This document shows positions 59,770 through 63,908 of a stretch of 64,000 nucleotides of DNA, piece by piece. Under the pieces are notes generated by a model. The model did no database searches, was not told the DNA's origin, and worked only from the letters and a program-made list of their open reading frames with translations. Source of the stretch: Nitrospinota bacterium. Lineage in GTDB: Bacteria; Nitrospinota_A; UBA7883; JACRLM01. The DNA is taken from assembly GCA_016208975.1 (NCBI GenBank), contig JACQXA010000004.1:1551015-1615014 (forward strand), given 5' to 3'. Each line of letters begins with the position of its first letter. Position 1 is the stretch's first letter. The translations under genes were made by a program, and so were the position numbers.

Positions 59770-59829
59770 CGAGGTTTTCAGCGGATAAACCTTCGCGTTC
59801 CATGGCCTTTCAAACTTGAGGCGAAACGG

Positions 59830-60468
59830 ATGGAAGCCATATTAAAACTGCTGGTCTCCGCCATTTTCGGCGCCCTTATCGGCGTAGAGCGGCAGATCCG
59901 GGGCAGACAGGCGGGCTTTCGCACACAGATTCTGGTTTGCCTGGGTTCCTGCCTTTTCACAATAGTATCAATCCACGCTTACGAAGTTTACGGGGCAGTA
60001 ACCGATCCCGGCAGAATAGCCGCGCAGATCATCACCGGAATAGGTTTCCTTGGCGCGGGGGCCATATTGAAAACCGGCGCCCTGGTTCGGGGGCTTACCA
60101 CCGCCGCGTCCCTCTGGATAGTGAGCGCCATCGGCATGGCGGTGGGGTTCGGTGAGTATGGATTGGGCGCCGCGGCCACGGCCTTCGCCATTTTAAGCCT
60201 TGTGGCGCTCAAGAACATGGAGTCCGTCCTTTCGCAGGACAACTACGCGGAGATAATGATAAGGACAAGCGGCGCCGAGGAGTTGGACGTGAAAGCGCTG
60301 GTGAAGGATTTCGGAATGAAAGCGCTGGAGAGCAAGCACCGCTTCCTCAAAGAGGAAAAGATCACCGAGCAGACCATATCGCTGAAATATACAAATCCAG
60401 AGAACCTTACCGGCTTTTACCGCCAGATGAAAGAAACGCCGAACCTGATAGAGCTGAGGATATTGTGA
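59830..60468 (+). CDS. MgtC/SapB-family membrane protein
   Basis: The 212-residue protein has four to five membrane helices in the first 130 residues, beginning with the MgtC hallmark LIGVERQIRGRQAGFRTQ and TGIGFLGAGAILKTG, then LGAAATAFAILSLVAL. The C-terminal 80 residues form an ACT-like domain (EIMIRTSGAEELDVKALVKD). MgtC-type proteins act in magnesium or phosphate homeostasis, and in pathogens in survival in macrophages; the role here is open. The stop overlaps the next start by one base (TGATG). Confidence 0.88.
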   Translation: MEAILKLLVSAIFGALIGVERQIRGRQAGFRTQILVCLGSCLFTIVSIHAYEVYGAVTDPGRIAAQIITGIGFLGAGAILKTGALVRGLTTAASLWIVSAIGMAVGFGEYGLGAAATAFAILSLVALKNMESVLSQDNYAEIMIRTSGAEELDVKALVKDFGMKALESKHRFLKEEKITEQTISLKYTNPENLTGFYRQMKETPNLIELRIL

Positions 60469-60893
60469 TGAAGCTCGATTTATCCGCTTTGAAAAACGCC
60501 ATAGCCGCGCTGGAGAAAAGCCTGAATTATCTTAACTCGGATTTGGCCAAGGACCCGGATTTGCGCGAACAATTCCGCGCCGCCGCGATACAGGCTTTTG
60601 AATTCACCCATGAGGTGGCGTTCAAAATGCTTAAACGGTGGCTGGAAAAGGCGGTGGCCGGCCCTTCGGTGATAGACATGATGAATTATATGGATGTGAT
60701 CCGGGCGGGCGCAGAAGCGGGATTTTTAACGGATGTGGCAAGATTCAGGGACTATCGAGAGAAGCGGAATATCACCAGCCATACTTACGATAACGCCAAG
60801 GCCGAGCAAATAGTTTCCGTGTTAAGCGATTTCCGTAATGACATGGTTTATGTGCTTTCCGAACTGGAGCGGCGCAACCTTGCGGACGATTGA
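60468..60893 (+). CDS. hepT: HepT-like HEPN toxin, RX4HXY type
   Basis: The 141-residue helical protein belongs to the HI0074 / HEPN family. It carries the ribonuclease motif RX4HXY exactly: R-NITS-H-T-Y in REKRNITSHTYD. Such toxins (type VII toxin-antitoxin) cleave RNA when free and are silenced when the adjacent MNT enzyme adds AMP to the motif Tyr. It starts at ATG 60468, one base into the mgtC stop, and overlaps the antitoxin gene by 14 bases, toxin first as in Shewanella hepT/mntA. Confidence 0.85.
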   Translation: MKLDLSALKNAIAALEKSLNYLNSDLAKDPDLREQFRAAAIQAFEFTHEVAFKMLKRWLEKAVAGPSVIDMMNYMDVIRAGAEAGFLTDVARFRDYREKRNITSHTYDNAKAEQIVSVLSDFRNDMVYVLSELERRNLADD

Positions 60894-61200
60894 TATCAGC
60901 CCCGGCGATATGGAAACGGTGATGGGCATTTTGCGCGTCCATGCGCCGGGCAGGGAAGTGTGGGTGTTCGGCTCCCGTATTACCGGTTCCGCCAAACCAT
61001 TTTCCGACCTGGACCTGGCCGTGATGGGAGACAAGCCATTGCCGTCATCCGCGCTGGCGGAGATGAAAGAGTCTTTCAGCGAGTCCAATCTGCCCTTCAA
61101 GGTGGACGTGGTGGAATGGGCGGACACCAGCCCTCAATTCCGGAAGATAATAGAGGATAGGCATGAAGTATTACAGGAAGCCGCTCAAACACATGGATAA
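60880..61200 (+). CDS. mntA: MntA-like minimal nucleotidyltransferase antitoxin
   Basis: The 106-residue protein starts at TTG 60880 inside the hepT 3' end (ATG 60910 is a shorter alternative). The nucleotidyltransferase motif GSX10DXD is complete: FGSRITGSAKPFSDLDLAV, followed by a third acidic strand (FKVDVVEWAD). In studied pairs MntA transfers AMP units to the Tyr of HepT and neutralises it. The next gene begins 28 bases later. Confidence 0.85.
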   Translation: MRTIDISPGDMETVMGILRVHAPGREVWVFGSRITGSAKPFSDLDLAVMGDKPLPSSALAEMKESFSESNLPFKVDVVEWADTSPQFRKIIEDRHEVLQEAAQTHG

Positions 61201-61227
61201 CTATCGGATGCTAATAGGATAAGACAA

Positions 61228-62229
61228 ATGAAAACCAACTCTCTTGGCCAATTGCAGAGGATGGATTTACGTGAGATCTGGGACAGCGAATCTGGGGAGT
61301 TCACACCATGGCTGGCTCAGGACGAAAATATAGCCCTTCTAGGCGATACTATCGGGATTGAACTTGAGTTGGAAGCCCAGGAAAAGAATGTAGGCCCATT
61401 TAGAGCGGATATTCTGTGCAAAGATATATCAAATGATTCATGGGTTCTAATTGAAAACCAGCTTGAGGCTACCGATCATAAACATTTAGGGCAACTGCTT
61501 ACTTATGCCGCCGGGTTGAAGGCTGTAACGATTGTCTGGATAGCCCAAAAGTTTACTGATGAGCATCGAGCTACCATGGATTGGCTTAATCAGATCACTG
61601 ATGAAAATTTTAACTTTTTCGGGTTGGAAGTTGAATTGTGGCGCATAGGGGGCTCTTTGCCGGCTCCCAAGTTTAACGTTGTTTGCAAACCGAATGATTG
61701 GGCCAAATCGGTCGCTGATTCAAGAAAGAGAATCGAGGAGGGCGAACTAAACGAATATAGACAAACGCTGATTGAATATTGGGCCGGGTTTAGTGATCTG
61801 GCAAAAACGAGGAGCAAACTTATAAAGCCTCAAAAACCGCTACCGCAACAATGGACGAATGTTGCTATTGGAACCTCTAACTTTTGCCTTCTCGCTTCCG
61901 TGAACAACCAGAAACAATTTATAACGGCCCATTTAGGGATATACGGGCCTCACTCAAAGTCTAATTTCAAGGAATTATTTGCAGAAAAGCATGATGCGGA
62001 AAAGCAATTTGGCTGTGATCTGGACTGGCGTGAAATGCCGGATAAAAAAGAAAGTAAGGTTTTGATCAAACTAGATAAAACAAATCCAACAGACAGGAAT
62101 GATTGGCCCCGGCAACATCAGTGGCTATTAGATAATCTGGAAAAGCTTCACAAGGTGTTTTCCAAACGAGTCAAAGCTTTAAAACATGCCAAATTTAACG
62201 GCAGTGATGATTCTGATGAGGGAGAGTGA
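61228..62229 (+). CDS. DUF4268 protein with PD-(D/E)xK-like N-terminal domain
   Basis: The 333-residue protein has an N-terminal domain of restriction-nuclease type: GDTIGIELELEAQEKNVG, then PFRADILCKD and WVLIENQLEATDHKHLGQ, where Asp and the Glu-x-Gln (in place of Glu-x-Lys) fit a PD-(D/E)xK core. The rest matches DUF4268 (EYWAGFSDLAKTRSKLIKPQ; WLLDNLEKLHKVF). Its function is unknown, but such proteins often travel with defence genes. The gene is richer in A and T than its neighbours, a sign of transfer, and stands between two HEPN/MNT pairs. Confidence 0.75.
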   Translation: MKTNSLGQLQRMDLREIWDSESGEFTPWLAQDENIALLGDTIGIELELEAQEKNVGPFRADILCKDISNDSWVLIENQLEATDHKHLGQLLTYAAGLKAVTIVWIAQKFTDEHRATMDWLNQITDENFNFFGLEVELWRIGGSLPAPKFNVVCKPNDWAKSVADSRKRIEEGELNEYRQTLIEYWAGFSDLAKTRSKLIKPQKPLPQQWTNVAIGTSNFCLLASVNNQKQFITAHLGIYGPHSKSNFKELFAEKHDAEKQFGCDLDWREMPDKKESKVLIKLDKTNPTDRNDWPRQHQWLLDNLEKLHKVFSKRVKALKHAKFNGSDDSDEGE

Positions 62230-62238
62230 TAAGCAGGA

Positions 62239-62619
62239 ATGACCACTCCTGAACGATGGGCTGATCAGGCCCGTTATGATATTGACACCGCCAAGGCCAT
62301 GCTTGAGGCAAAGCCGTTCCCTTACGTTCTTTTCATGCGCCAGCAGGCGATCGAGAAGGCTTTGAAAGCGATTGTTATCCAGGTTACAGGCAAAATGGCC
62401 CCGCGAATTCACAGCCTTGTCAAACTAGGCGAGCTGGCGCAGTTGAAACTTTCGGCTGAGCAGGAAAAATTCTATGCCGAACTAGTTTCATACTATATCG
62501 GCTCTCGCTATCCTGAAGATTTGCTGGCGATGTCGAAGAGGGTTTCGCATCAAAAAGCCAAGGAGGCGCTCGATAAATCCGAGGAGGAAATCCAATGGCT
62601 GTTGTCTCTATTGAAATAG
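62239..62619 (+). CDS. HEPN-domain protein lacking the RX4HXY motif
   Basis: The 126-residue helical protein matches the HEPN family PF05168: ERWADQARYDIDTAKAML, RQQAIEKALKAIVIQVTG, PRIHSLVKLGELAQL, and SRYPEDL. It has no RX4HXY motif, so it is unlikely to be an RNase like the HepT protein at 60468-60893. It lies ten bases after the DUF4268 gene and overlaps the next MNT gene by 25 bases. Its role is unknown; it may be a partner domain of the nucleotidyltransferase. Confidence 0.8.
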   Translation: MTTPERWADQARYDIDTAKAMLEAKPFPYVLFMRQQAIEKALKAIVIQVTGKMAPRIHSLVKLGELAQLKLSAEQEKFYAELVSYYIGSRYPEDLLAMSKRVSHQKAKEALDKSEEEIQWLLSLLK

Positions 62620-62942
62620 AAAAGCGTATTAAGGAAGCCATGCTGGATTTGAACAGGTCATCAAAAGTTACAGCTGTGTACATTTTCGGTTCGCAAATAA
62701 ACGGCACGGCGGATGAATGGAGCGATGTGGATATAGGCGTATTTGCCGAAGGTGTGGAGAACTGGGATTTTGAACGATTCACCGAGGAATTCGTAAACGT
62801 ACAAATTAAATATGGTCATGATCTTGAACCCCATTTCTTCCCCGCCAGCGTTTTCGACAATCCGGAGCCGGGGAGTTTCGCCGAGTTCGTGAAAGAAAAC
62901 GGCGTGCGTATAGATTTGAGCCCGGAACCTCCCGCAAAATAA
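62595..62942 (+). CDS. minimal nucleotidyltransferase (MNT), partner of the HEPN protein
   Basis: The 115-residue protein has the complete GSX10DXD motif: FGSQINGTADEWSDVDIGV. It differs from the MntA at 60880-61200 in its C-terminal half (FERFTEEFVNVQIKYGHDL). ATG 62595 is within the HEPN 3' end and has GGAGGAAA ahead. The pair resembles HEPN/MNT modules, but the HEPN lacks the known modified Tyr motif, so the target of nucleotidyl transfer is unknown. Confidence 0.8.
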   Translation: MAVVSIEIEKRIKEAMLDLNRSSKVTAVYIFGSQINGTADEWSDVDIGVFAEGVENWDFERFTEEFVNVQIKYGHDLEPHFFPASVFDNPEPGSFAEFVKENGVRIDLSPEPPAK

Positions 62943-62967
62943 ATTTACCCGCCTCCCTCCGATAGTG

Positions 62968-63113
62968 TTCTTTCCCCCGCCTATTTTGGTATGATTGCGC
63001 GATGGAAAAAATCCGTGATCAGGCGGTCACGGGGTAGCCAGGGGATATGTAGTCTGGATGCCTCGCCGAAGCTTCGGGAATCTGCCGCCGGGCTCCGCAT
63101 GGAAGTAAGGTAA
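62968..63113 (+). promoter_or_regulatory. candidate promoter and structured leader of the Mla operon
   Basis: TTCTTT (62968-62973) and TATGAT (62990-62995) are 16 bases apart. A leader of about 110 bases follows with short hairpins: CCGTGA/TCACGG and the palindrome CCGAAGCTTCGG. A short open frame ATG 63002 ends after 11 codons. I see no known riboswitch. Confidence 0.4.
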
Positions 63114-63908
63114 TTGATCAAATTCAGCGTCGCTGTCATAGAGGCCGTGGTGGGCAACATCGGCCTGTGGGTGATTTGGACCGCCCACTCGGTGGGGGAG
63201 CTTTCCATGTTCACCTGGCAGGTGCTCAAATGGCTTGTCCGCCCGCCATTGCGCATCCGCGCGGTTTTCGAGCAGATGCAGGAGATCGGCTACAACTCGG
63301 TGCCCGTGGTGGCCATTACGGCGCTGTCCACCGGTGGCGTGCTGGCCTTGCAAAGCTACATCGGTTTTAAACGGTTCGGCGCCGAGAGCATGGTGGGCAC
63401 CGTGGTGGCCCTTTCCATGACCCGCGAGCTGGGGCCGGTGCTTACCGGCATAATGGTGGCGGGCCGGGCGGGCTCCGCCATGGCCGCCGAGCTTGGCACA
63501 ATGAAGGTGACCGAGCAGATCGACGCTTTGTACACCCTGGCGGCCAACCCCATTAAATACCTTATCGTGCCCCGGTTCATCGCAGGGGTGCTGATGCTTC
63601 CCATGCTGTCGGTGGTGGGGGATGTGCTGGGCATAATGGGCGGAGCGGCCATAGGGGTGGGCACGCTGGAGGCCAACCCGGTGGTTTACATGAAAAAGAC
63701 TTTCGAGTTCCTGGAGTTGAACGACATTTACTCCGGCCTGTTCAAAAGCATGGTGTTCGGGGGCATCATAGCCATAGTCTGTTGTTTCCAGGGATTCGCC
63801 ACGGAAGGGGGCGCCGAGGGTGTGGGAAAGGCCACCACGCGGTCGGTGGTGATATCGTCCATCCTCATACTTGTTACGGACTACGTTATGACCGCGTTCC
63901 TGTTCTAG
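63114..63908 (+). CDS. mlaE: MlaE-family ABC lipid-transport permease
   Basis: MlaE is the inner-membrane permease that moves phospholipid between the two membranes of Gram-negative cells. The 264-residue protein has five to six membrane helices and the signature MTRELGPVLTGIMVAGRAGSAMAAELG (shown here in part: MTRELGPVLTGIMVAGRAGS) and EQIDALYTLAANPIKYL. It starts at TTG 63114 with AAGG upstream, as the stop TAA lies just before. The MlaF ATPase gene begins 17 bases later. Confidence 0.93.
   Translation: MIKFSVAVIEAVVGNIGLWVIWTAHSVGELSMFTWQVLKWLVRPPLRIRAVFEQMQEIGYNSVPVVAITALSTGGVLALQSYIGFKRFGAESMVGTVVALSMTRELGPVLTGIMVAGRAGSAMAAELGTMKVTEQIDALYTLAANPIKYLIVPRFIAGVLMLPMLSVVGDVLGIMGGAAIGVGTLEANPVVYMKKTFEFLELNDIYSGLFKSMVFGGIIAIVCCFQGFATEGGAEGVGKATTRSVVISSILILVTDYVMTAFLF

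Follow-up and report, generated by a model that had tools for sequence, protein, structure and literature searches.

Between alr and mlaE (63114..63908), the window (the whole stretch of DNA analyzed, 64,000 nucleotides from a Nitrospinota bacterium) carries a gene for an MgtC-family membrane protein (59830..60468; PF02308, 3.3e-38) followed by a block of five genes, all on the plus strand. The block opens with HEPN1 (60465..60893 from a GTG start, or from an ATG at 60468; PF08780, 1.6e-29), an HI0074-type HEPN and predicted RNase toxin, and MNT1 (60838..61200; PF18765, 3.4e-12; PF01909, 1.6e-10), a minimal nucleotidyltransferase and predicted adenylylating antitoxin. The gene for a DUF4268 protein (61228..62229; PF14088, 4.8e-27), a predicted PD-(D/E)XK-fold nuclease, separates this pair from a second one, consisting of HEPN2 (62239..62619; PF05168, 5.2e-22), a Class II HEPN lacking RX4-6H, and its partner minimal nucleotidyltransferase MNT2 (62595..62942; PF01909, 4.6e-9). 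Overlaps of 4 bp (mgtC/HEPN1), 56 bp (HEPN1/MNT1) and 25 bp (HEPN2/MNT2) are found, together with gaps of 27 bp between MNT1 and the DUF4268 gene and 9 bp between the latter and HEPN2. An earlier note on this DNA had described the same layout: one strand, overlaps or short gaps, between mgtC and mla. Reading frames and motifs are intact across all five genes. The HEPN gene comes first in both pairs; phylum-wide, the order among detected pairs, a few cross-pairings included, is MNT-first in approximately 33 versus HEPN-first in approximately 14. No repeats, promoters or terminators above chance level were found in the block.

The genes lie within a 3.3-kb insertion at the alr-mlaE junction (59770..63113). 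In ten relatives of the same order alr and mlaE are still neighbours. Nine have them directly adjacent, 36-104 bp apart; the tenth, from another genus (G009), has cargo between them: its gap measures 2.2 kb and contains genes for a D12 adenine methyltransferase and an endonuclease of the SacI type (L062:8225-10287). Variable defence-type cargo at a single site in relatives is the mark of an insertion hotspot, represented in this case by only two genomes in which the site is occupied. The block is acquired cargo at this junction. The mgtC gene, which has a counterpart (41% identity) in just one of the 23 further genomes searched from the phylum, is also foreign to the site and was acquired with the block or earlier, its stop overlapping the HEPN1 start. 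DUF4268 is absent from all 23. The GC content of the window is 0.57, and that of the backbone genes dnaB, alr and mlaE 0.59-0.60; the corresponding values are 0.51 and 0.56 for HEPN1 and MNT1, 0.43 for the DUF4268 gene, and 0.50 and 0.46 for HEPN2 and MNT2. The DUF4268 gene, with a GC3 of 0.44, is indeed A/T-rich, as had been remarked earlier, and the differences in composition between the modules fit separate acquisitions. A search for insertion-end repeats at the block found none, and integration at a tRNA gene was rejected, the sole tRNA in the window being 43 kb off. In a loose sense the description of the block as a small defence island is justified: the site holds a type II restriction-modification pair elsewhere, and the modules are of toxin-antitoxin and defence-candidate kinds. 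This type of cargo makes a defence role for the block plausible.

HEPN1 passes the TIGR01987 (HI0074) model with 70.3 bits against a cut-off of 55.8, and its closest solved relative is HI0074 (PDB 1jog, 3e-19). It possesses a complete RX4HXY motif (RNITSHTY), and MNT1 a complete GSX10DXD motif (GSRITGSAKPFSDLD), in agreement with what the earlier note had read for the first pair. Class I HEPN/MNT toxin-antitoxins are defined by a PF01934 or PF08780 HEPN with RX4HXY beside a PF01909 MNT with GSX10DXD (PMC7641770); HEPN1-MNT1 combines PF08780 and PF01909, each with its motif, and is filed as Class I by this motif definition, not as an NCBIfam equivalog. The HepT/MntA equivalog cut-offs of NCBIfam (60 bits) are not reached by HEPN1 (16 bits) or MNT1 (45 bits), so the names hepT and mntA apply to these genes by likeness only. 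In Class I members elsewhere, adenylylation of the toxin is established (Yao 2020, PMC7641770). The best PADLOC match of MNT1, far better than any in Pfam, was to the first 102 positions of the type I specificity model PDLC03138 (1.9e-24). This model seems to contain MNT-HsdS fusions or mis-joined genes, and the match suggests that such pairs or fusions are common.

The second HEPN-MNT pair reported in the earlier note is also present, but its motifs place it in Class II rather than making it another hepT-mntA. RX4-6H was looked for in HEPN2 and is absent; MNT2 has the complete GSX10DXD motif (GSQINGTADEWSDVD). A PF05168 HEPN without RX4H is thus found beside a GSX10DXD MNT, the Class II arrangement, for which Yao and co-workers knew of no biochemistry (PMC7641770). 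No relatives of HEPN2 were found on plasmids at 1e-5.

The DUF4268 protein consists of 333 amino acid residues, with the DUF4268 domain in its C-terminal half. Pfam analysis revealed only this domain and a weak PDDEXK_4 match, with no DUF262 and no DUF1524. Alignment with 29 homologues (30-56% identity) reveals that E52, D61, E76-N77-Q78, H86 and Y93 are invariant. The E..D..ENQ core reads as the ExQ variant of PD-(D/E)XK, with Q for K; ExQ is also present in some active restriction enzymes (BglII). The AlphaFold2 model of the protein has a mean pLDDT of 88, and Foldseek matches to it were assigned to the two halves by fold type and domain order. The N-terminal half matches NucS of Pyrococcus abyssi (2vld), a repair endonuclease, with a probability of 1.00 and, less strongly, SfsA (4dav) and archaeal Hjc (2wiw), while for the C-terminal half the matches are to chaperone folds like those of ExsC and YbjN. 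The combination of fold and acidic core is that of the PD-(D/E)XK superfamily, with K replaced by Q, and the invariant columns and the fold comparison bear out the PD-(D/E)xK-like core recognized earlier. On conserved residues and modeled fold, the protein is likely a nuclease. The model of the DUF4268 domain (residues 180-316) resembles chaperones of the ExsC/SicP type and YbjN with a probability of about 1.0, and this chaperone-like fold is a possible clue to partner binding. PADLOC matches the protein at near full length (residues 1-317 on positions 1-312 of 313; 2.7e-125) to PDC-S11, a single-gene phage defence candidate, which makes it a member of this group and, as regards phage defence, a database candidate. 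No experiment on phage protection by PDC-S11 was found in the literature searched.

One critical question is whether these genes travel together. The flanks of 46 DUF4268 loci (681 kb) were searched with an MNT profile made from the 13 MNT genes of this genome. In 44 of them the flanking sequence retrieved contained no MNT. In the other two (L150 and L151) an MNT lies approximately 0.5 kb from DUF4268, and these count as one event because the flanking genes are common to both. Neither reproduces the order of the block, since L150 has MNT then HepT downstream and L151 has an opposite-strand ORF inside the DUF4268-MNT gap. Among seven plasmids and one provirus carrying DUF4268 the neighbours varied, with an MNT in one archaeal case, 2.8 kb away, and a scan of viral contigs produced one partial locus. 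Of the 107 genes immediately adjoining DUF4268, no more than two belong to any one Pfam family. In the neighbour-family tallies, where genes were called by simple longest-ORF rules and some neighbours are missed or false, no dominant partner emerged around DUF4268 or around HEPN/MNT. Seen from the HEPN side, the flanks of 51 loci in the phylum and of 30 HEPN2-like loci in Pseudomonadota contain no DUF4268, whereas an MNT is found in 51/51 and 29/30, respectively. Sixteen of 399 Pseudomonadota genomes possess DUF4268, 28 a relative of HEPN2, and none both. As roughly one such genome was expected (1.1), this zero is weak alone, and it is the locus counts that carry the argument against co-travel. 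The load of pairs is high in this genome, whose 3 Mb include 13 small MNT genes, many of these adjoining a HEPN gene, and HEPN/MNT pairs are plentiful in relatives without DUF4268. The co-occurrence and kept neighbourhood of a conserved HEPN/MNT and DUF4268 system are thus not seen.

We consider it likely (probability about 0.75) that the block is not one system but a small, opportunistic assemblage of modules that reached the alr-mlaE site independently. In the first module, MNT1 would very probably adenylylate the tyrosine of the RX4HXY motif of HEPN1, silencing the predicted RNase. The DUF4268 protein, standing alone, would make up the second; it is predicted to cut DNA by means of a PD-(D/E)XQ active site, and its DUF4268 domain probably serves to recognize a substrate or partner. 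The third would be the Class II pair, in which HEPN2 is without the RNase motif. From the common strand and short gaps we surmise that the genes are probably co-transcribed from upstream, which does not imply a shared mechanism. Against independent modules, five genes on one strand with overlaps and short gaps would be in keeping with an operon whose genes share a role, and HEPN/MNT pairs accompany nuclease or restriction genes at two other kinds of locus, on Acetobacter plasmids and in a genome of the same family.

These loci have a bearing on an unlikely alternative, a loose pairing in which a Class I HEPN RNase would act as a second line when the adjoining DNA nuclease fails or is inhibited, like PrrC beside type I restriction, the partners being interchangeable and their order not fixed. 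On the Acetobacter plasmids an HI0074-type HEPN and then an MNT, in the same order as in the block, are situated between the hsdM and hsdS genes of type I operons. In a relative of the same class (G015), hsdR, hsdS and hsdM of a type I system are interspersed with two MNT-HEPN pairs (L207:5-6131, G015:C39), and the match of MNT1 to the N-terminus of the type I specificity model of PADLOC (1.9e-24) points the same way. Restriction-modification linkage is among the commonest bacterial HEPN contexts, and HEPNs so linked have been proposed as a suicidal second line (Anantharaman 2013, PMC3710099). Most HEPN/MNT pairs of this phylum, however, lie beside housekeeping genes, restriction genes being a handful among 79 neighbours, so that the restriction link is a tendency at best; and DUF4268 rarely has a HEPN/MNT pair nearby.

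The parallel within the family comes from G001, the only other family genome sampled, in which HEPN-MNT, a nuclease-like gene and MNT-HEPN follow one another on one strand (L209:190-2590, G001:C306). This locus adjoins dapF/lysA and is unrelated to the block; one of its HEPNs is related to HEPN2 (35%, 3e-20). The nuclease-like gene encodes GGRLDLLL...YEVEIQLG and a weak DUF5655 tail, and its comparison with the DUF4268 protein by hhalign (probability 13.5%, E 0.002) is no more than suggestive of homology. A nuclease or nuclease-like gene between two HEPN/MNT pairs is therefore seen twice in the family. That such pairs repeatedly flank interchangeable PD-(D/E)XQ nucleases in this family (DUF4268, the DUF5655-tailed protein of G001 and, in the class relative, around hsdS), as a guard killing the cell if the nuclease is neutralized, strikes us as decidedly doubtful.

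Less probable again is the reading put forward in the earlier note, in which the block forms one system with the DUF4268 protein as the nuclease effector. In its fullest form this would be a dedicated five-gene defence system, the DUF4268 protein cutting DNA and the HEPN/MNT pairs sensing infection or restraining the effector by nucleotidylation. It has in its favour the gene order, overlaps and common strand, the intact motifs of both MNTs and the predicted active nuclease core. The search of other genomes for DUF4268 beside HEPN/MNT, which the note itself had proposed as a check, revealed that the genes do not travel together, the outcome named there as fatal to the claim. With 44 of the 46 DUF4268 loci lacking a nearby MNT, DUF4268 at none of the 51 and 30 HEPN loci, no genome among 399 with both (1.1 expected) and three modules differing in composition, the five-gene system is very improbable, and largely refuted by the lack of co-travel. 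A neutral history, in which addiction modules and a mobile nuclease of the homing or repair type piled up at a permissive site and play no part in defence, would suit the wide scatter of HEPN/MNT pairs in the genome and the varied neighbours of DUF4268 on plasmids and a provirus, but is made a most unlikely account by the intact motifs and frames of all five genes and by the fact that another genus carries restriction-modification genes at this site.

Taken as a cluster of independently acquired modules, the block is a further case in which toxin-antitoxin pairs have gathered with a candidate nuclease at a permissive chromosomal site, and the comparison across genomes indicates that tight packing on one strand is insufficient for calling a joint system. 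DUF4268/PDC-S11 can now be better described as a predicted ExQ nuclease resembling NucS and Hjc, with a chaperone-like tail and, in most cases, no fixed partner.

By comparison with known systems, the DUF4268 protein shares a C-terminal DUF4268 domain with GmrSD, some of these type IV restriction enzymes being known to carry one (PMC4619093), but it has neither DUF262 nor DUF1524, one or both of which characterize GmrSD. It resembles PDC-S11, itself a candidate, over the whole model, with no difference seen. HEPN2-MNT2 is like other Class II pairs (PF05168/PF01909) in its HEPN without RX4-6H and its MNT with GSX10DXD, and differs in sequence divergence and HEPN-first order, nothing more. HEPN1-MNT1 shares with HepT-MntA (Yao 2020, PMC7641770) the RX4HXY and GSX10DXD motifs and adjacent, overlapping genes; HEPN1, however, is of the HI0074 type (PF08780) and not of the PF01934 type found in S. 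oneidensis, and the HEPN gene leads, whereas MNT is usually first (PMC3710099). With NucS, archaeal Hjc and SfsA, the DUF4268 protein has in common the fold of its N-terminal half and the conserved E, D and E-x-Q residues, from which it departs in having ExQ for ExK and in the added DUF4268 domain, with its predicted YbjN/type III chaperone-like fold.
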